From: Candidatus Gastranaerophilales bacterium
GTDB taxonomy: Bacteria; Cyanobacteriota; Vampirovibrionia; Gastranaerophilales; Gastranaerophilaceae
Reading direction: 5' to 3'
Assembly: GCA_944326565.1 (NCBI GenBank)
Contig: CALVEL010000003.1
Span: forward strand, 62,001-126,000
DNA length: 64,000 bases
Every line of letters starts with the position of its first letter. Position 1 is the stretch's first letter. The notes below the pieces were generated by a model, which saw nothing but the letters and a program-made list of their open reading frames with translations, was not told the origin of the DNA and made no database searches. Positions 42,204 through 62,132 of the stretch are shown here, piece by piece. The translations under genes were made by a program, and so were the position numbers.

Positions 42204-43472
42204 ATGACCGTTTTCAAAGAAACAGTCATAAACACAAAGACAATGAAAGGTTTGTCGAGGGATATGTCAATTTTAGGAAAATATACCGATAATATAGAAG
42301 AAGATAACTTTAATGACACTCAAGGCTACACTATTCCTGTAGTAGTAAAAAATGAAAAAGGACAGAGCCTAAAAAAAGATATAACTATATCTGCAATACT
42401 TCACCCCGTTGTATTAGGAATGATATATCTTATATCGTTAATTTTACTGTTCTTCGGAATAACTTTTAACGTCTTTGAAAGACCGAAACCTAAAATGAAA
42501 GATATAGAATTTGTACTTGTTGATAAAGAGGATACTCCAATTAACAAGAATACTCCATATCGTTCAGATATAAATTCTCGTGCTGGCGGACATCATGATC
42601 CGACAAAGAAAGTATCAATGCCTTCACCTACACCATCGGCATCAAAGAAAACATCACCTGCTCCGCAACAACCGACAAAAGCACAAACTCCAAAGCCACA
42701 GCCGGCTAAAAAGCCTTCAATAACAGAACAAATACAAAAAGCGGTCCAGCAGCCAACACCTGCTCCTAAACAAGAGCCGACTCCGCCTGCGCCAAAAGCA
42801 CCACAGGCCGCAAAACCGGCTCCACCTACCGCAAGACCTTCAATAAAACCTCCAATGACACCTAAAACTGTAGCAAAACCAAGTTCAGCTTTTCAAGTGC
42901 CTGTTCCTTCAGGAGGCACAAAATCAGGCAGTTATGCAACAGGTCCAATAAGTGGTTCAGGTACTGCTAACAAAGGCGGAGGCTCTGGTGGTCCTACATC
43001 AGGAAGCGGAAACAGCGGAGGCTCTTATACTCCAGCACCGTCACTCGCTCCGACAGGAGGCGGCAGTTCTTCTGGACAAAAACTTGCAAAAGGCGGTGGA
43101 GGCGGCACAGGAGGCTTGGGTAATCCAGGTCCTGGCAATCCTAACGGACGTCCAGGTATTGATACCATAAGAGAACCTGACTTCGGACCATATATGAGAG
43201 AATTACAAAGAAGAATTAAAATGAATTGGGATCCGCCTAAAGGAAACGAAAGCAAACGTGTTATTTTACTTTTCAAAATAGCAAAAGACGGAAGACTTTT
43301 ATCTTGCAGTGTATATAAATCTTCAGGGTTGAAAAGCGCTGATGATGCCGCACTTAATGCAGTAAAACTAACAGCACCTTTTAAACCTTTGCCTGCTGAA
43401 TATAAAGGTCAAAGTATTGATATCCAATTTACTTTTGATTACAACGTGTTTGGAGCTGCGGGTTATCAATAG
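42204..43472 (+). CDS. TonB-like energy transducer
   Basis: A 422-residue protein with a cytoplasmic N-terminus of about 62 residues (longer than usual for TonB), one membrane span (about 64-88), a proline/lysine/alanine-rich periplasmic stretch (about 120-260), a glycine/serine-rich stretch (about 260-325), and a C-terminal TonB domain (about 335-422: YMRELQRRIKMNWDPPKG, FKIAKDGRLLSCSVYKSSG, DIQFTFDY). It would couple the proton gradient, through the ExbB/ExbD genes that follow, to outer-membrane receptors; TolA-like action is an alternative. No TonB-dependent receptor is in the window. Confidence 0.9.
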   Translation: MTVFKETVINTKTMKGLSRDMSILGKYTDNIEEDNFNDTQGYTIPVVVKNEKGQSLKKDITISAILHPVVLGMIYLISLILLFFGITFNVFERPKPKMKDIEFVLVDKEDTPINKNTPYRSDINSRAGGHHDPTKKVSMPSPTPSASKKTSPAPQQPTKAQTPKPQPAKKPSITEQIQKAVQQPTPAPKQEPTPPAPKAPQAAKPAPPTARPSIKPPMTPKTVAKPSSAFQVPVPSGGTKSGSYATGPISGSGTANKGGGSGGPTSGSGNSGGSYTPAPSLAPTGGGSSSGQKLAKGGGGGTGGLGNPGPGNPNGRPGIDTIREPDFGPYMRELQRRIKMNWDPPKGNESKRVILLFKIAKDGRLLSCSVYKSSGLKSADDAALNAVKLTAPFKPLPAEYKGQSIDIQFTFDYNVFGAAGYQ

Positions 43473-43526
43473 AAAATACAAGCAATCTTTAGAAATAAAT
43501 TACATAAAAAGAGAGGATAAAAAATT

Positions 43527-44171
43527 ATGGAACTACTATTACACTCAATTCAATTGGACTGGCCGGTATTATTACCCATCCTTGTTTGTTCAATTTTGGT
43601 TGTTGCTGTTGTTATTAACAGATTTCAATTTTACAAAAAAAACAAGCGTGATGTTGTCTTATTTATACCGAAACTTCAAAGAGAACTTGCAAAAAATGAC
43701 CTTAAAGGCGCACAAAGTGTAGCTGAAAATTGCGGAGGCGCAATAGGAGAAGTAACAGAAGAGGCTGTAAGAATATTTTCAGAACAAAGAAACGGTTTCT
43801 CTCGTTCATTTGACATTGCTGTTGCTTTAGAGACAAGAAAATTGGAAAGCCACCTTACAATCTTAGGTACAATAGGAGGTGTGGCACCATTTCTAGGTTT
43901 GTTCGGTACCGTTGTACGTATTCTTTACACTTTCCAAGATTTAGCTACTCAAGGCAATCAATCTGCAGCTGTTGCAATGGGTATAGGTTCAGCCTTGATT
44001 GCCACAGCCTTTGGTCTTGGTGTTGCAATTGTCGCAGTTATTTTTTACAACTCTTTCCAATCAATTGTAAAAAGATACGAAGACGATTTCCAATTAATTA
44101 AACTTCTATTCTTGAGCTTTGTTGATTCTGAAGATGAATCAAATAAAACAGCATCAAATGTTTCATTATAA
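43527..44171 (+). CDS. exbB: ExbB/TolQ-family proton channel protein
   Basis: A 214-residue MotA/TolQ/ExbB-family protein with three membrane spans (about 15-33, 105-130 and 150-175). The family core LTILGTIGGVAPFLGLFGTV is at about 110-129 and VAMGIGSALIATAFGLGVAI follows at about 149-168, with the conserved threonine and proline of the ion path. With the two ExbD proteins encoded next it forms the motor that energises the TonB-like protein encoded just upstream. Confidence 0.93.
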   Translation: MELLLHSIQLDWPVLLPILVCSILVVAVVINRFQFYKKNKRDVVLFIPKLQRELAKNDLKGAQSVAENCGGAIGEVTEEAVRIFSEQRNGFSRSFDIAVALETRKLESHLTILGTIGGVAPFLGLFGTVVRILYTFQDLATQGNQSAAVAMGIGSALIATAFGLGVAIVAVIFYNSFQSIVKRYEDDFQLIKLLFLSFVDSEDESNKTASNVSL

Positions 44172-44190
44172 AACCAAAGGAAAATAAAAT

Positions 44191-44640
44191 ATGGCTATAA
44201 GTACAAACAAAAAAGAAAAATTGTTTACTGAAATAAATATTACACCATTAACGGATATTTTTCTTGTATTACTAATTATCATGATGGTTGTAGCACCGAC
44301 ATTTCAATCAATGGATAACGCTATAACTGTTCCTGAAATTAACAGCGGAGTTGCCATTGAGCAGAAAAATGCCACTATATCAATTACCAAAGAAGGATTG
44401 ATGTATGTAAATGGCAAACAAATAAGTGAAGAACAGCTTACTGATGAACTTATAGCTTTAAAAAGTACAATTGAAAAACCTGAAGTTGTAGTAAAAGCCG
44501 ATGAAAAAGTAAAAAGCTCTGAAATCATGAAGGTGATGAATGCAGCTCAAGATGCTGAATATAAAAAACTTATTGTAGCAGGAGAACCTCTAACTAAAAA
44601 AGAACAAAAAGAGCTTAAAGAAAATAACCAAGGAGTCTAA
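44191..44640 (+). CDS. exbD: ExbD/TolR-family protein (first copy)
   Basis: A 149-residue protein with one N-terminal span and the family motif EINITPLTDIFLVLLIIMMV (about 15-34), in which the Asp (TD) is the proton-carrying residue. The periplasmic domain of about 100 residues ends with a charged tail (KKEQKELKENNQGV). It is followed after 2 bases by a second exbD, so the motor may contain two kinds of ExbD. Confidence 0.93.
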   Translation: MAISTNKKEKLFTEINITPLTDIFLVLLIIMMVVAPTFQSMDNAITVPEINSGVAIEQKNATISITKEGLMYVNGKQISEEQLTDELIALKSTIEKPEVVVKADEKVKSSEIMKVMNAAQDAEYKKLIVAGEPLTKKEQKELKENNQGV

Positions 44641-44642
44641 AA

Positions 44643-45035
44643 ATGAGTAGCCGTAACCGCGGAGAATTTAATGAAATAAATATAACACCGCTAACAGATA
44701 TTTTTCTTGTATTGTTAATTATCATGATGGTAATTGCACCTTTGCTGGATCAACAAGGACTAAACTTAACAGTACCTGAAAATGTTGCTCAAGAACAAGT
44801 AAAGCAAGATTCAAAAATTTTGACAGTCAATGTAAGCTCAGATGATAAATACTACATTGACGGTCAAGAAATTCCTGTCAATGAACTTGAAAATTATATA
44901 AAACAACAGGCTCAAAATTTTCCTGACGGTATGATGATTGAAACAGATGGTGAAGCAACTCACGGTGCTGTTGTAAAATTAATGGACAGCGCAAGAAACT
45001 CAGGTATTACAAGCATCTCTGTTTCTCAAGTATAA
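44643..45035 (+). CDS. exbD: ExbD/TolR-family protein (second copy)
   Basis: A 130-residue ExbD homologue with EINITPLTDIFLVLLIIMMV at about 10-29, almost the same membrane motif as the preceding gene but a different periplasmic domain (NLTVPENVAQEQVKQDSK, VVKLMDSARNSGITSISV). Tandem, non-identical exbD genes occur in several bacteria and may form heterodimers. It ends the operon, with a strong terminator 34 bases on. Confidence 0.93.
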   Translation: MSSRNRGEFNEINITPLTDIFLVLLIIMMVIAPLLDQQGLNLTVPENVAQEQVKQDSKILTVNVSSDDKYYIDGQEIPVNELENYIKQQAQNFPDGMMIETDGEATHGAVVKLMDSARNSGITSISVSQV

Positions 45036-54919: not shown

Positions 54920-55363
54920 TTAAGCAGATGCATTTGCAGCGTCATCGACTATTTTACTACCTTCCTCTGTAGCCTCAGCGGCTTTTTTACCAAACCATTT
55001 GCCAAGAGTAGCATCGTAAGATTTTTTAGCTGATTCACCAAACTTATAAACATAATCTTTTAATTTAGCTCCCCAGCCTTCAGCGCCTTCTGCTAATTTC
55101 CAAGACTCCATTTTACCTTTACCAACAGCTAATCCTAGTCCTGCCCAAAGTAGGAACAAACCTGCAACTATACCACCAATAATAGCACCGGTATGTTTTT
55201 TCTCTTTAGCTTCACCTTTTGTAGATAAATCAACTTTGTCTTCAGCCGGAGCTGTTTGCGGTTGTGCCGCACTTGCAGTATTTGAAAATTTTCCGGGTTC
55301 GTTAATTAAAGCATTCAGATCTTTATCTCCGCGGAAATTTACACTTGAAACAGAACTTATCAT
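54920..55363 (-). CDS. Hypothetical single-span membrane protein with FRGD N-terminal motif
   Basis: A 147-residue protein of unknown function. It begins MISSVSSVNFRGDKDLNAL; a low-complexity A/P/Q/T stretch follows (30-60), then one membrane helix at about 60-82 (AIIGGIVAGLFLLWAGLGLA). The C-terminal domain is helical and charged (LKDYVYKFGESAKKSYDATL). GGAGG lies about 5 nt before the ATG. The FRGD segment recalls FKGD near the start of the 31842-33533 product. No family is recognised. Confidence 0.78.
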   Translation of the reverse strand: MISSVSSVNFRGDKDLNALINEPGKFSNTASAAQPQTAPAEDKVDLSTKGEAKEKKHTGAIIGGIVAGLFLLWAGLGLAVGKGKMESWKLAEGAEGWGAKLKDYVYKFGESAKKSYDATLGKWFGKKAAEATEEGSKIVDDAANASA

Positions 55364-55539
55364 GAGAAAACCTCCTTATAATATATTACACACTTATTAA
55401 CACTAAAATAAAAACCTAGACATATATAATTTTGTCTCAAACAGAGATTTTTTACAATATTTGTTACAAAAGTTTACATAAAAATTGGAATATTTTTTAA
55501 TCTCGTGTCATCTTATAGGATGTAGGGAGGAAATTAAGA

Positions 55540-58527
55540 ATGGCAGGACAAGAAACTTTAATTTATATTGATGAAAATGATGAAAAAAATGCAGGCATAA
55601 GTGCGAAAAAATTTACAAAAGAAGATTTAAAAAATCGTGCTTATTATAATATATTGGGAGCAAATCTAGTTAAAAAATTTTTAGCTGATAAAAACATTGA
55701 TGTATCCGATATATACAACATTCATAATATTAATAAAGTTCTTGAAGAATTAGATATTTCTGATATTATGCTCAAAAATATTCATATTGATGTCAGAGTA
55801 ATATTTAACGAAAACTACATTTTCATTCCTAAAAGTCATTTTGAATATGATATTCTTCCCGATATTTATGTAGTACTTCAAATGTCTACAGACAAAAAAT
55901 ATACTAAATTCTTAGGATTTTTTGAGCCAAAACTTATTAATAAAAATAATGAAAATGAAGAGTATTATTTTATAGAAAAAGAAAAATTGACTTCACCTGA
56001 AAATTTAAAAGAATTTGTTCAGAATTTTAAAGGTAATACTTCTGAAAAACTTTCCGACTCTGAAACTGACGAATCTGACATGTTAATATTATCTTTAATA
56101 GATCAGGACATAAGTGAAAAAGATAAAAAACTATTATTAAAAAATCTGACCAAATCTGCTGAACTGAGAGACAGATTTATAGAATTTGAAAATTTTGAAA
56201 TGTTATCCTATAGAGCAGAACATCCTACTGAATTTATTGACAATTACAATTCAAGCACCAATGAGAATATGCCTTTATCACTTGATAAAGCTGCAGAAGC
56301 AACCGCTGAGATACTAAAAGAATATACAACAGCACATACCGTTGAACAAACCAAAAAAGAAGAAGAAATAATAAACGGCTTTAGTAATCTTGAAAGAAAT
56401 CTTCCAGATTTTACCCCTGACAATGCAGACAAAACCCTTGATGAATATGAAAAAGATTTCATGAATATAAATATTGATGAGCTTCCGTTTGAAAATAATG
56501 AAACTATAATTGACACTACTGAGCAAAATCAAGTTGAAATATCAGAAGTTCCAACTTCAATTGATAGTAATCAAACACCAGAAGTGACTGAAGAAATTAT
56601 TGATTTTGAATCATTTGAAAATACAACCGAATTCAATAAAATTGAAACAACTAACGAAAATGAAGAAAACACCATGATGGATTTAGAAGAAATTCCAATT
56701 ATGGAAACATCTAATAACATTTCTACAACAGAAATTCCGCAAGATATTGTAAATTTAGATGAAATAGCTCCTGTACAAGAAGAAAAGAAAGATTTTATCG
56801 ATAACACTCAGGATACAGTTGATATTGATAACATAGAAACTATTCCTCAAGAATCCTCTCATCAAAATATCGCAACAGAGCCTGAAACGCTTAATTTTGA
56901 AGACATTGCACCAAACATTGAAGATAATTCTCTCAAGACAAATATTGACGAAACCGAGCCTGAACTTGAATCTTTTGATGAAATTAGCATCAATAATGAA
57001 GGAATACAAGAAAAAGCTAATTCAAACATAGACGATATTGAAATCGAAAATCTCGAAAATATTAATGAAGAAAATGAACTTACATTAGATGGCGACATTT
57101 CTTCAGAATTATCCTTTGATGAAAACTTAACAATTGATGAAGATATAAATAGTGACCTTGAATTAAGTTCTAATAGAGAAACTTTAGATAATACAACATC
57201 TGAATATAAAAAAGAAACAGACTTAGTTGAAAATGTAACTTTGAATAATGAAGAAAATACTTTAATGGATTTTGATTCAATTGACCAATCCGAAATAAAT
57301 TCGGAAGATAAAGCTGATCTTGACCAAAATATAGAATTAAAAACAAACGAAGAAAATCAAGAAAACATTTCAATTGAAACAGAGCAAGATACAATAGAAG
57401 CAGATAAAGAACTGGATCAAATGTTAGCTCTTGAAAATTTATCAGAAGAAAGTCTTATTGATGAGTCTGAAGAAAAATCTATTGAAGAATCAGAAGAATA
57501 TCAAACAAATGCAAATAGCAGTGAAAGTCCTGAAGATATCAATATAGATGATTTGAAAGAACTTGGACTTAATGTAGAAGAACTGCCTGAAGGTAATAAT
57601 GAAAACGAAGATGTAAATACCGGAGATTTAATTGCTGAAATTGATGATTTATTAAACAGTGAAGAAAATCCTGACAACATTCCAAAACAAGTTGAATCTA
57701 ATGATGAAGACAGCACAAAAAATAAACTTGAGATGTTGTTTAATTCAAGTGATCAAAATGATGAAGATGAATCATTGCTAGATGAAGAAAATGACAATTC
57801 AATAAGTCAGGAAAAAGTATCAGCCCCCGAAAAAGGTAAAAAGGCAATTATTATTGCAGCAGCTCTTGTTGCAGTATTAGCAGCAGCTGCAGGTACAGGC
57901 CTATTTTTGAAAAATAAAAACAACAATAATTCTGATATATTGGCTCAAAATCCTATTGAAAATGACACAGCCAATATTCCTACAGAAAATACAATCCCAA
58001 ATAATGCCGAAGCCAATACCAATTTAATTGCGAATACTCCTGAATCCGGATTACCACAACCAGCTCCGGCAGGGAATAATAATACAACAAAACAAGAAAA
58101 ACCAAAAGCACCCGTACAAGCAGAAAAAACAGCACCACAAACGCAGCAGGCAACAAAACCCAATATCACAGGTACACCTACTCCTTATGTATCAATAAAA
58201 AGTTTAACTTGGGAAGTACCAGATTATCTTTCTTATAGTGATAAAGTCAAAAAATATTTGCAAACAGCAGGCAAAAGTATAAGATTAACACTTTCAAGCG
58301 ATCTTTTACTAGCTACAGAATATGCCTATTCAAATCAAGTTAAAGTCGCTATAAAATTAAAAAATGACGGAACTATACAAGATATACAAATATCAAAATC
58401 AAGCGGGTCAAACCAAATTAATGACATTGTGTTACGAACTGTTAAAGACACTTTGAATGTGGTAAAACCCGCGCCTGGAGAGATTCCTGGCAATGAATTT
58501 AACCTGGGACTTATCATAAATTTTTAA
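55540..58527 (+). CDS. Giant acidic single-span protein with C-terminal TonB-like domain
   Basis: A 995-residue protein. Residues 1-200 appear folded (LILSLIDQDISEKDKKLLLK near 180). Residues about 240-765 are a long, low-complexity acidic region rich in E, N, I, D and T. One membrane helix lies at about 769-791 (AIIIAAALVAVLAAAAGTGL). A linker of about 90 residues rich in N, P, Q and T leads to a TonB-type C-terminal domain (about 885-995: VKVAIKLKNDGTIQDIQISK, NDIVLRTVKDTLNVVKP). Positive residues before the helix suggest the acidic part is cytoplasmic and the TonB domain periplasmic. GGGAGG precedes the ATG. It is the first gene of an apparent operon with a sigma factor and an ATPase. Confidence 0.8.
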   Translation: MAGQETLIYIDENDEKNAGISAKKFTKEDLKNRAYYNILGANLVKKFLADKNIDVSDIYNIHNINKVLEELDISDIMLKNIHIDVRVIFNENYIFIPKSHFEYDILPDIYVVLQMSTDKKYTKFLGFFEPKLINKNNENEEYYFIEKEKLTSPENLKEFVQNFKGNTSEKLSDSETDESDMLILSLIDQDISEKDKKLLLKNLTKSAELRDRFIEFENFEMLSYRAEHPTEFIDNYNSSTNENMPLSLDKAAEATAEILKEYTTAHTVEQTKKEEEIINGFSNLERNLPDFTPDNADKTLDEYEKDFMNINIDELPFENNETIIDTTEQNQVEISEVPTSIDSNQTPEVTEEIIDFESFENTTEFNKIETTNENEENTMMDLEEIPIMETSNNISTTEIPQDIVNLDEIAPVQEEKKDFIDNTQDTVDIDNIETIPQESSHQNIATEPETLNFEDIAPNIEDNSLKTNIDETEPELESFDEISINNEGIQEKANSNIDDIEIENLENINEENELTLDGDISSELSFDENLTIDEDINSDLELSSNRETLDNTTSEYKKETDLVENVTLNNEENTLMDFDSIDQSEINSEDKADLDQNIELKTNEENQENISIETEQDTIEADKELDQMLALENLSEESLIDESEEKSIEESEEYQTNANSSESPEDINIDDLKELGLNVEELPEGNNENEDVNTGDLIAEIDDLLNSEENPDNIPKQVESNDEDSTKNKLEMLFNSSDQNDEDESLLDEENDNSISQEKVSAPEKGKKAIIIAAALVAVLAAAAGTGLFLKNKNNNNSDILAQNPIENDTANIPTENTIPNNAEANTNLIANTPESGLPQPAPAGNNNTTKQEKPKAPVQAEKTAPQTQQATKPNITGTPTPYVSIKSLTWEVPDYLSYSDKVKKYLQTAGKSIRLTLSSDLLLATEYAYSNQVKVAIKLKNDGTIQDIQISKSSGSNQINDIVLRTVKDTLNVVKPAPGEIPGNEFNLGLIINF

Positions 58528-58566
58528 TTATGATATAATACTAATAGTGTAAAGGATTATTGTATA

Positions 58567-59148
58567 GTGGAATTTACTCAGGACAAAATAGATTTAATAG
58601 AGAGAATTATAAAAAACGACAGAAAATTTGCAAATAATGAAGATTTGTATGATGATTTCTTCAATGAAACTTGCAAGCGTTCTTTGAATATTGTCAAAAC
58701 CATTACATCAGATGCAACTTTAGAAGCTTATTTAAAGAAAATAGCAAACACCTCTATACTAAATGTATTGAAAGATTCTGGGAGATTACGCCGTACAAAA
58801 GAGGGCTTTACCCCAACAAAAGAAGTTTCCATAGATCAATTGCAAAATGAGCACAATTCTAATACAGGCAATATATACGCAAATACTAAAATAATGTATG
58901 AGCCTGTAAATATAAAAGAAACACCTGAGGATATTCTTCTGAAAAAAGAGATTTTGCAACACGTTCTAACTTCACTAGAAAAAATAAACAATGACAATCC
59001 TGATAAAAAGTATTTACAAATCTTTAAATTGCGTTATGATAATGGTATGACACAAAAAGAGATTGCGGCAGAAATGGATTTGTCACAATCAGAAGTCTCC
59101 AAACGATTGTTCAAGCTTATGGAAAAGATTAAACAAACGTTTAATTAA
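58567..59148 (+). CDS. Sigma-70 family RNA polymerase sigma factor (short form)
   Basis: A 193-residue sigma-like protein. The N-terminal half resembles region 2 (YDDFFNETCKRSLNIVKTIT, LEAYLKKIANTSILNVLKDS). A linker of about 50 residues follows, and the C-terminal region 4 helix-turn-helix is clear (IFKLRYDNGMTQKEIAAEMD, LSQSEVSKRLFKLMEKIKQT). Size and layout are those of ECF-type factors. The start is GTG at 58567, with AAAGGA about 10 nt upstream. It lies 39 bases after the TonB-like gene and 14 before the ATPase gene. No separate anti-sigma gene is adjacent; the TonB-like protein may fill that role. Confidence 0.85.
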   Translation: MEFTQDKIDLIERIIKNDRKFANNEDLYDDFFNETCKRSLNIVKTITSDATLEAYLKKIANTSILNVLKDSGRLRRTKEGFTPTKEVSIDQLQNEHNSNTGNIYANTKIMYEPVNIKETPEDILLKKEILQHVLTSLEKINNDNPDKKYLQIFKLRYDNGMTQKEIAAEMDLSQSEVSKRLFKLMEKIKQTFN

Positions 59149-59162
59149 TCAGGATTTAAATT

Positions 59163-62132
59163 ATGAAATGTCCCATTTGCAAAAAAACAATTCCGGACAA
59201 TGCATTAAAATGTCCTTATTGCAAAACAAGAACCGGATTAGTTTGTAAAAATTGCAACACTATAAACTCAATTTTCGATTTAGTATGCAAAAACTGCGGT
59301 CAAGAAATTTTAAAGATTTGCCCGCAGTGTAAAAGTGTAAACTTTCCAAATGCACTAAATTGCCGAAAATGTAAATATCCATTCCCCCAAAAAGAGGAAA
59401 CAAAGAATAAACAACCTAATCTTTTTGAGTTTTCATCACAAAACCTCGTTGCACAACAAAGTGCAAAAAATATTCTTGTAAAAAGCATACTTTCTGACTC
59501 AAAAAAAATAATATCAATCAGCGGTCCAAAAGGTACCGGTAAAACTCTTGTAATATCACATGTTATACAAGAATTACAAGATAAACATTTTATATGGTTC
59601 TACGGCAACTGTACCCCAATATCACAGCTTACCCCCGGAGGTCTAATTCAGGATATCATATTGAACCTTTTTAATCTTCCGAATTTCTGTATAAATAACA
59701 ATAAATTCAGAAAAGATGCTTCAAAATATTTTCAAAATGAATTTCCATATTTGAATGTCGAAGAAGTAAATGACCTTTTGAATTTTCTATATCCTTCTAA
59801 AAACGGTACTTTTGAAACAATTTTCACAAATAAGACAAAATATTTTGAACTTTTAAATAAGATTTTTGACAAAATAATCCAATACAGCAAATTTGTTATT
59901 ATCGTAAACAATTTTGAAAATATTGATGGATATTCATATGAATTCTTAAATAACTTTATCAAAAAAGATTACATTTTTAGTGATTTAAAAATTATTATTG
60001 CATATGACGAACATAAACCTGTAAAAGGATTTTTCTATCTTCCCGAAGATAAATCAGAAAACATATATACAGATGTATATTTAGCACCATTAGATGCAAA
60101 ACAGATGTATATATTTACCGATACAAAAGAAAATGAAGAAAATTTCCCCAAAATTGATGATTCAACAAAACGTAAACTATTCCTGCAAAGTAATGGGAAC
60201 CCTGCATATCTTGAACAAGTTCTTGAACTATATCAGGAAAGTGCAGCGAATAGTAATAAGAATTTTATAATTCCCCAAACATATACAGACATAATTAATC
60301 AGAGGCTTGCAATTTTAAAAAACACCAATTCAAAAGCTTACTATACAATTATGGGCTGCGCATTGTTAGGAGAAAAAATAAACCTCAATCTTATAAAACA
60401 AATATTCGAATATAGAGATGAAGACTTTAGCGATATAATAGCCTACTTACAACAGAAAAAATACATAGAGCCGCTAAATGATATCTATTACCGTTTTAAA
60501 AGTCTTTACCTGTGGGAAACTATTGTAAAATCAGTCAAAACTGATGATCGATTTGAAGAAATAAATAAGAAAATATTCTCATCACTTATCGGATTTACAA
60601 TGAATTCAACCGCAATTTTAGGAATAATAGCACAAAACCTTAAACATCCTAAACTTGCACTTGACATCTGGACAAAAAATACCAGATTAGCTTCGTTTAT
60701 AGGAGATACAAATCTATATGCAATTTCACAAAAACAATGTCTTGCTTTAATAAATGAACTAGATGATACAGAAACACTAAAAATAAGATATAATATTTGC
60801 GAAAGATTAGGAAAACTTTTAGCAGATTTTAACCCCCAAGAAGCGATGGATTATCTGCCTGATGCAATATCAAATGCAAAAAGTATCGGAGATACACCAA
60901 GAGAAATAGAGCTTCTCGGATATATGGCAAGCTGTTGCAGAAAAACAGGGAATTATTATGGAGAAGTTGAATGCGTTGATGCAGTATTAGAAAAAATGCA
61001 GCCTGAACAAAAATTTGAAATGGCTCTTGTAAAATCAACAGAATTAAATGCCCTTTTAAATATAGGCAACTGCGGTCAAATTATCAATATGATAGATAAT
61101 GAAATAATGCCTGCATTTGATGCCTTTTTAAGTAAAAATGAACCGCATCCAACAATTCCTATGGATTTGGTATTTGAAACTTGGATAAAGACCTACCTTG
61201 TACTTGCAAACGCTCTTGTAATGCAAGGCAACAACCGTTCTTTTGAAATTCTTACAATCCTATTTGATATAATAGAACGCAATCACATTCAAGATGACAG
61301 TTTAATTTGCAAAGTAAGAATATCACTTGCCCTTGCAAATACAATTAAAGGTGATATACCCGAATCTGAAAAAATCTTGGAAGAAATACATAAATCATCC
61401 CAAACAAAGAATCTTGACAACGAATGTGTAATTAAATGGAATTTTGTAAATATATTGAATAATATATTCCGTAAAAGATATAACGGACTTCAAGAAGACC
61501 TATTCCAAATTGTAACTTATGCAAATAACAATGGTGATAATTTTACTAAAAACATTTTAAAATCCTTGCTTGGTATAATTTTCAGACACAATGACCAAAC
61601 CAATCAAGCTATGGATATATACAATGACCAGATAGCTTATTTTTCAAAAGAAAAAATGGCTCTTGGTGCATTACTGACATGGTATTTAATAGCTGATGCA
61701 ACAATAATAACAGAAGGTCCGCAACAAGCTCATGACATTGCATCACAAGCTCTGCAAGTAGCGCAAAACCCCAAAATTAATAACCACATTTTTGCAATAC
61801 TTTTGCAAATGGTTCTTGCAAAAGCATGCATAGGATTATCAGATTTTGAAAGCGCCAAAATTAATATTGAAAATGCCATAATAACAGCACGACAATATGG
61901 TCTTAATGATTTATTATCGAGACTTTATCTTCAATATGGACAATACTTCCAAGAACTTGGACTTATAAAATCTCAAAGACAAAAAGATTACCTCAATGGG
62001 GCAGCTAAAATGTATGAAAAAGCTTCTGAAATAGTTAAAACTATTACCAAAAATAACTGTATTCATCTTGAAATACAAAAAGCAAAAGCTGTATTAAAAA
62101 CATTCTGCCAACTTAATAAAATTTCAATATAG
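59163..62132 (+). CDS. Zinc-ribbon, P-loop NTPase and helical-repeat protein
   Basis: A 989-residue predicted cytoplasmic protein. The first 75 residues hold a series of CxxC pairs (C3/C6, C17/C20, then CKNCNT, CKNCGQ, CPQCKS, CRKCKY), forming about three zinc ribbons. Walker A is GPKGTGKT at about 121-128; the Walker B-like strand FVIIVNNFENIDG near 242 has Asn where Asp is usual. A helical region of about 500 residues follows, with tetratricopeptide-like repeats (YLPDAISNAKSIGDTPREIE, IASQALQVAQNPKINNHIFA). The layout resembles STAND-type signal-transduction ATPases. It follows the sigma factor after 14 bases. Its target is unknown. Confidence 0.8.
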   Translation: MKCPICKKTIPDNALKCPYCKTRTGLVCKNCNTINSIFDLVCKNCGQEILKICPQCKSVNFPNALNCRKCKYPFPQKEETKNKQPNLFEFSSQNLVAQQSAKNILVKSILSDSKKIISISGPKGTGKTLVISHVIQELQDKHFIWFYGNCTPISQLTPGGLIQDIILNLFNLPNFCINNNKFRKDASKYFQNEFPYLNVEEVNDLLNFLYPSKNGTFETIFTNKTKYFELLNKIFDKIIQYSKFVIIVNNFENIDGYSYEFLNNFIKKDYIFSDLKIIIAYDEHKPVKGFFYLPEDKSENIYTDVYLAPLDAKQMYIFTDTKENEENFPKIDDSTKRKLFLQSNGNPAYLEQVLELYQESAANSNKNFIIPQTYTDIINQRLAILKNTNSKAYYTIMGCALLGEKINLNLIKQIFEYRDEDFSDIIAYLQQKKYIEPLNDIYYRFKSLYLWETIVKSVKTDDRFEEINKKIFSSLIGFTMNSTAILGIIAQNLKHPKLALDIWTKNTRLASFIGDTNLYAISQKQCLALINELDDTETLKIRYNICERLGKLLADFNPQEAMDYLPDAISNAKSIGDTPREIELLGYMASCCRKTGNYYGEVECVDAVLEKMQPEQKFEMALVKSTELNALLNIGNCGQIINMIDNEIMPAFDAFLSKNEPHPTIPMDLVFETWIKTYLVLANALVMQGNNRSFEILTILFDIIERNHIQDDSLICKVRISLALANTIKGDIPESEKILEEIHKSSQTKNLDNECVIKWNFVNILNNIFRKRYNGLQEDLFQIVTYANNNGDNFTKNILKSLLGIIFRHNDQTNQAMDIYNDQIAYFSKEKMALGALLTWYLIADATIITEGPQQAHDIASQALQVAQNPKINNHIFAILLQMVLAKACIGLSDFESAKINIENAIITARQYGLNDLLSRLYLQYGQYFQELGLIKSQRQKDYLNGAAKMYEKASEIVKTITKNNCIHLEIQKAKAVLKTFCQLNKISI

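Follow-up and report, generated by a model that had tools for sequence, protein, structure and literature searches.

What is a membrane protein with a long acidic part and a TonB-like end doing next to a sigma factor? The question is raised by three genes in a stretch of 64,000 nucleotides of a Candidatus Gastranaerophilales bacterium (assembly GCA_944326565.1, contig CALVEL010000003.1, positions 62,001 to 126,000, hereafter the window), from a genome of 1.87 Mb that is 99.9% complete. The genes are closely spaced on one strand, as the original prediction had described them, with gaps of 39 and 14 nucleotides (Table 1). They encode the TonB-like protein, a short sigma factor of the extracytoplasmic function (ECF) type, and a large protein resembling the signal transduction ATPases with numerous domains (STAND). 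We think it probable that the locus encodes a membrane-anchored class-I-type anti-sigma factor together with its ECF sigma factor, and that a STAND-like P-loop protein is expressed along with them. The best reading of the first two genes is an anti-sigma/ECF pair of new architecture, well supported in terms of homology and conservation and with a predicted function.

Table 1. Features of the locus and positions in the window.
Feature	Position	Strand	Basis
Conserved upstream element TTTGTTACAAAAGTTTACA (putative binding site)	55460-55478	+	12 genus sequences, 74 family upstream regions
ECF-like promoter element TGGAATATTTT-N9-TGTCATCT (GGAAT-N14-TGTNATC)	55486-55513	+	71/76 family upstream regions
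TonB-like protein gene, read as membrane-anchored anti-sigma factor	55540-58527	+	995 residues, ATG
DUF1822 domain, residues 9-158	55564-56013	+	PF08852 33.7 bits, cut-off 25; PD-(D/E)XK-like fold
Degenerate class-I anti-sigma domain (most likely), residues ~173-228, zinc ligands lost	56056-56223	+	MucA/RsiW match, zf-HC2 in relatives, profiles
Acidic linker, residues 231-766, net charge -137, no cysteine	56230-57837	+	Composition
KLEMLFN ([LI]xxL[FY]) motif, residues 729-735	57724-57744	+	69/72 family proteins
Single membrane span, residues 770-788	57847-57903	+	Hydropathy
Periplasmic TonB-like domain, residues 929-978	58324-58473	+	TonB_2 PF13103 32.3 bits, cut-off 22
ECF-type sigma factor gene	58567-59148	+	193 residues, GTG start; TIGR02937, Foldseek to E. 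coli sigmaE
STAND-like protein gene: triple zinc ribbon, P-loop (GPKGTGKT), TPR	59163-62132	+	989 residues

Domains of the TonB-like protein

The original prediction saw none of the known anti-sigma domains in the TonB-like protein, and this is the claim that our analysis overturns: judging from a structural model and from its relatives, it most likely has a class-I anti-sigma domain of the zf-HC2 type in degenerate form. In the AlphaFold model of residues 1-246 (50 sequences; mean predicted local distance difference test 90.2, predicted template-modelling score 0.85), the segment in question is a three-helix bundle (helices 173-187, 193-205, and 207-227). Its best structural matches in VIA-align are all to anti-sigma factors: RsiW (5wuq_C; residues 175-239, Z 7.6, root-mean-square deviation (rmsd) 5.2, 63 of 70 residues) and, for residues 173-227, MucA in two structures (8z6g_E, Z 7.5, rmsd 2.2, 54 of 71; 6in7_A, Z 7.2, rmsd 2.6, 55 of 79). 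The rows that follow have Z of 4.9 and 4.6. Among 10 basal relatives scanned for Pfam zf-HC2 (cut-off 22.2 bits), four match above the cut-off immediately after the DUF1822 region (L083 with 27.0 bits, L088 with 23.6, L064 with 27.6, and L076 with 26.3), five match below it, and one has no match. The zinc motif HX3CX2C is found at the aligned site in 20 of 49 relatives, distributed over the families f1 to f7 of the order as 2/2 in f2, 9/9 in f3, 2/2 in f4, 7/31 in f1, and 0/5 in f5-f7. These 49 proteins (43,266 residues) contain a single further occurrence, at residue 200 of the contig-end fragment L105, apparently at the same site. Because the deeper relatives keep both HX3CX2C and zf-HC2 at this place, we class residues ~173-228 as a degenerate domain of the same kind.

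Profile comparisons tell a similar story. A profile of the anti-sigma segment matches the zf-HC2 domains of the phylum with 97.3% (E 2.5e-11), and with 92.0% (E 6.6e-7) once the rows with CxxC are removed; the best of 100 column shuffles gave 3.0% and the reversed profile 0.8%. The domain is visible solely through its fold and through basal relatives, not in the sequence of the window's own family. Two side observations concern the same domains. L105 (L105:3537-4157, on G003:C172) is a second DUF1822 fragment that also carries the zinc motif; the genus genome in which it was found has 4% contamination, and it may come from a foreign species. The genome carrying the window (G000) encodes a separate protein of 199 residues (G000:C5:16528-16812) with one zf-HC2 match above the cut-off and a weaker second one.

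The segment stands behind a DUF1822 domain that the whole-protein Pfam scan missed, which is why the protein seems to have no domain there. When residues 1-237 are scanned alone, PF08852 is matched above its cut-off over profile positions 2-158 of 370, the C-terminal half of the profile being unmatched. The same model is above the cut-off in 100 of the 146 genomes of a phylum sample, many of them relatives of the window's genome, and a profile of 75 family sequences aligns over residues 8-163 with 30 cyanobacterial DUF1822 proteins (91.6%, E 8.2e-7). In VIA-align, residues ~3-165 match Hjc (2wiw_B, Z 7.8), DpnI (Z 6.9), and NhoI (Z 6.9), whose common fold we take to be PD-(D/E)XK nuclease-like. 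We considered and rejected an active nuclease, given that Z is below 8 and that the full catalytic set is not evident. A purpose for DUF1822 is hinted at by its company: it adjoins ECF sigma genes in Cyanobacteria and is fused here to an anti-sigma module.

The cytoplasmic part had been described as 770 acidic residues followed by a single span. The span stands, while the acidity is confined to a linker of 536 residues (162 Asp and Glu, 25 Lys and Arg), the first ~230 residues being folded. In 72 family proteins the linker has 376-1004 residues, of which 23-36% are acidic and 1-5% basic, and its sequence is poorly conserved except for one juxtamembrane motif. This motif, [LI]xxL[FY], which was defined after the sequences had been inspected, lies 25-63 residues before the span in the family proteins counted in Table 1; it occurs in 12 of 515 other 70-residue linker windows, in 1.7 of 72 shuffled sequences, and in 12 of 34 more distant relatives. 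Hydropathy gives one span in 70 of the 72 full-length proteins and two in the others, with 178-237 residues C-terminal to it. The protein of the window ends, as originally proposed, in a TonB domain placed after its one span. Since it has no signal peptide and a TonB-like end, the predicted topology is N-in/C-out.

Partners, gene order, and promoter element

The identities first given to the two downstream products were borne out. The 193-residue protein matches NCBIfam TIGR02937 with 70.8 bits (cut-off 42.9) and Sigma70_r4 with 37.7 (cut-off 24.1); Sigma70_r2, at 12.7, is below its cut-off of 24. Its structural model is of moderate confidence (predicted local distance difference test 77.5, predicted template-modelling score 0.37). 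The top Foldseek rows are all sigma factors, including sigmaE (1or7_A) and AlgU (8z6g_D) with probability 1.00, and the fold matches sigmaE lengthwise. The protein is short, with regions 2 and 4 and no region 3, as in ECF sigma factors. The 989-residue protein has DZR above the cut-off (32.4 against 27.3), AAA_16 below it (29.5 against 32.6), and TPR matches also below their cut-offs; a P-loop followed by TPR repeats is the arrangement of STAND proteins. Its relatives have three zinc ribbons in 80 of 80 cases and the P-loop pattern in 79 of 80. At the likely Walker B aspartate the family often has DNF, but the protein of the window and some of its near relatives have NNF. Our guess is that this protein is a STAND-like sensor or effector. 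A paralogue of 1175 residues in the same genome (L106:4605-8132, minus strand, on G000:C5) has ~200 extra residues after the zinc ribbons and no recognisable P-loop pattern.

Of 59 relatives searched, 55 gave a match to the sigma factor, 57 to the large ATPase, and 55 to the TonB-like protein, a recurrence that makes a chance locus untenable. The class was sampled with 146 genomes, and the sigma factor was found at E ≤1e-8 in 52, all of the window's family; 94 lack it, and all those listed belong to other families. Gene order, which the original prediction had named as a check on the locus, is kept: TonB-like gene, sigma factor, and ATPase follow one another on one strand in 80 of 80 loci of Gastranaerophilales. 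These are the best 80 of 272 loci ranked by sigma similarity, and are therefore a sample of near relatives. In 71 of them the first gene is whole; it is cut by a contig end in 5, split in 3 (L197, L204, and L209), and present as overlapping open reading frames in 1 (L199), possibly because of a frameshift. In the split cases one frame encodes the DUF1822/anti-sigma part and the other the acidic linker, span, and TonB part, with a plausible ribosome site between them. We also counted one locus in each of 54 genomes across the seven families of the order. The full order is found in 32 (30/34 in f1, 1/1 in f5, and 1/2 in f7), and the first two genes alone are adjacent in 15. The ATPase is thus the separable member.

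A conserved promoter element precedes the operon. The 12 genus sequences share TGGAATATTTT before the first gene, followed by CGTGTCATCT in 11 of 12. Further upstream, TTTGTTACAAAAGTTTACA is invariant or nearly so in the same 12 sequences and belongs to the consensus of 74 family upstream regions. The promoter element has the form GGAAT-N14-TGTCATC. We searched 76 family upstream regions, i.e., those of 75 loci and the window (4 of the 80 loci were missing or had no usable upstream region), and found GGAAT-N14-TG[TC]N[AC]TC in 71 of them, and in 74 with looser spacing; the strict form occurs 0 times per 76 in mononucleotide shuffles. It lies 46-60 nucleotides ahead of the start codon in all but one case (-35). 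The three genes are separated in family f6; there the core of the element is upstream of the TonB-like gene (2/2 loci) and not of the sigma (0/4) or ATPase (0/3) genes. The element thus follows the anti-sigma gene, which is what negative feedback would lead one to expect. The core GGAATAWTTT is absent upstream of unlinked sigma genes (6 loci); among 20 loci with an unlinked ATPase gene it occurs upstream of 2, at -130 and -153, which we take as chance.

The original prediction also suggested a check for a sigma-specific promoter motif shared by genes of the genome. This check yielded a single strongly conserved element, before the operon itself, and we found no shared regulon with a pattern of 11 fixed bases searched in 14 genomes, with the reversed pattern as control. 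In all 9 of 9 genus genomes this pattern recovered the operon site, and in those nine it also hit 12 sites elsewhere, against 3 for the control; three pairs of non-operon sites recur between genomes. With up to 3 mismatches, the genome of the window has at least 42 sites against 22 control sites. The exact 28-base form is found at the operon site (G000:C3:117486-117513), the sole exact match among the matches listed. On the other side of the intergenic region, window positions 54920-55363 encode a divergent small protein of 147 residues that starts with MISSVSSVNFRG; it keeps this place in many family members.

Proposed mechanism and alternative explanations

With a probable anti-sigma clamp encoded beside a sigma gene, the locus resembles an envelope-to-gene signalling system of gut Melainabacteria with an unusual layout, in agreement with the trans-envelope role originally proposed for the TonB-like protein in the place of the anti-sigma factor. 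From the computed domain content and homology, gene order, and promoter conservation, we propose the following. When there is no signal, the helical module behind DUF1822 would bind the sigma factor and hold it, inhibited, at the inner membrane, and the conserved juxtamembrane motif of the acidic linker may add a further point of contact. Conditions in the periplasm or at the outer membrane would be sensed by the periplasmic TonB-like domain on its Asn/Pro-rich tether. A change at this domain would release the sigma factor, the probable route being either regulated proteolysis or a shift in conformation. The freed sigma factor would then transcribe at least its own operon from the GGAAT-N14-TGTCATC promoter, and this would renew the anti-sigma factor in a negative feedback.

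Several observations weigh against this assignment. The structural matches of the anti-sigma segment have Z below 8 (~13 for helical bundles) and may, by the tool's own caution, reflect a mere common arrangement; Foldseek E-values for the N-terminal model are poor. The zinc ligands are lost, HX3CX2C being absent from a window protein that has no cysteine at all. Sequence searches with the segment of the window's family returned no anti-sigma family, and E. coli RseA, compared as a single sequence with the segment profile, gave 2.1%. A profile made from the window's family alone matches zf-HC2 with 27.1% (E 6.7e-4), the best of 100 shuffles reaching 15.1%. With the signal falling this low, the anti-sigma call in the window's lineage rests on homology to relatives. 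The split genes disconnect the DUF1822/anti-sigma part from the membrane span. By the rule we used, anti-sigma and sigma genes are not adjacent in 7 of the 54 order-wide loci (4/4 in f6, 2/34 in f1, and 1/9 in f3, the last scored so solely because its C-terminal domain went unrecognised), and the ATPase gene is unlinked in f2, f3, f4, and f6. Finally, the f3 family has no promoter element (9/9), so its genes must be driven otherwise.

These points lend some weight to a different history, in which an ancestral anti-sigma factor became, in this lineage, an envelope tether or scaffold whose zinc-less domain no longer binds sigma. Control of the sigma factor would then lie in its expression or with the STAND-like protein. 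Such a loss would fit the missing zinc ligands, the weak family-only signal, and the gene split in three species; the sigma factor also has a net charge of 0, which leaves the acidic linker no obvious charge partner. We nevertheless consider it unlikely, because the domain stays conserved and folded and because order and promoter are kept. Zinc-free class-I domains, such as those of RseA and RskA, are moreover known to be functional, and ~44% of the class I anti-sigma (ASD-I) family lacks HX3CX2C, according to passages of PMC7406223. On those figures, the missing motif is not decisive.

The original prediction had drawn on FecR-type signalling. In such a scheme the TonB-like domain would contact an outer-membrane receptor of the TonB-dependent kind, with the cytoplasmic part activating the sigma factor instead of inhibiting it. 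A single span, a neighbouring ECF partner, and a TonB-like periplasmic domain are all compatible with this. Against it, the Pfam scan of the 995-residue protein gave no FecR match at E up to 1, and the Plug domain of TonB-dependent receptors (PF07715) was found in 0 of 13 genus genomes and in 3 of 21 overall, 2 of them above the cut-off. FecR proteins are not known to have a TonB-like domain at their end. We therefore rejected FecR-type wiring, which is very unlikely. Least credible of all is a TonB/TolA-like energy-transducing protein whose only tie to the sigma factor is a common operon: TonB_2 is above its cut-off and there are ExbD-family proteins (this genome has two, both encoded within the window), but the genome holds separate TonB_2 proteins, one beside ExbD genes, and this explanation does not account for the anti-sigma-type domain or for the fact that six families of the order pair the protein with sigma.

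With recognisable receptors absent from the genus, yet ExbD and other TonB_2 proteins present, the TonB-like domain probably contacts something else. The window contains a separate energy-transducing cluster at 42204-45023, with a TonB_2 open reading frame (42204-43472), two ExbD-family genes (44224-44586 and 44670-45023), and a 214-residue frame, a candidate ExbB, in the position of ExbB/TolQ. Elsewhere in the genome, three closely spaced TonB_2 proteins of 183-257 residues are encoded at G000:C2:227452-228912, and similar groups occur in other genus genomes.

The anti-sigma reading can be extended to a more speculative form, to which we give little credence in its entirety. In a stretched two-handed clamp, residues 173-228 would hold sigma region 4 and KLEMLFN, a candidate for the class-I fourth helix that binds sigma region 2, would hold region 2, with the ~500-residue polyanionic linker between them. 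Tension or binding at the TonB-like domain would open the clamp, and DUF1822 would be a phylum-wide sigma-control module with a nuclease-like fold. In the simpler form, the anti-sigma/ECF pair offers a concrete envelope-to-gene signalling system for the gut lineage Gastranaerophilales, conserved through the order; we found no such system for this lineage in the literature searched. That the domain is recognisable here only via relatives that keep the zinc motif implies that further anti-sigma domains may lie unnoticed in long ‘acidic, domain-less’ membrane proteins encoded next to sigma genes.

Comparison with known systems

The closest parallel for DUF1822 comes from Cyanobacteria, where sigma and DUF1822 genes adjoin in sets with CHAT, caspase, or CHASE2 genes. 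A sentence of Kaur et al. 2021 (PMC8195603) names ECF sigma and DUF1822 as neighbours of caspase genes. Sigma-like open reading frames adjoin DUF1822 in 16 of 30 cyanobacterial loci taken with 1.5-kb flanks. In 8 annotated plasmid loci, a sigma-70 gene directly precedes DUF1822 in 3 (one of these three proteins has no Pfam match in the same scan), proteins of ~505 residues with sub-threshold region-4 matches precede it in two more, and a membrane sensor (CHAT-CHASE2) comes next in 3. The cyanobacterial proteins differ from ours in sharing just the N-terminal ~160 residues and in being encoded after the sigma gene. We looked for an anti-sigma module in them and discarded the idea: none was seen by eye in 11 sequences, and the profile alignment is N-terminal only.

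The Dma family resembles the TonB-like protein in its N-terminal anti-sigma region, span, disordered tether, ECF partner in the operon, and a C-terminal domain suited to reach across the periplasm. In Dma the C-terminus is a beta-barrel and the long tether follows the span, whereas here the C-terminus is TonB-like, with no such barrel, the long disordered part is cytoplasmic, and DUF1822 is an addition.

The pairs RsiW/SigW, MucA/AlgU, and RseA/sigmaE share with this locus a neighbouring ECF sigma factor, a cytoplasmic class-I-like helical module, one span, a periplasmic sensor part, and an ECF-like promoter ahead of the operon. The locus departs from them in the DUF1822 domain in front, the acidic linker between module and membrane (376-1004 residues in the family), the TonB-like periplasmic domain, the zinc-ribbon STAND-like gene downstream, and the loss of the zinc motif in this lineage.

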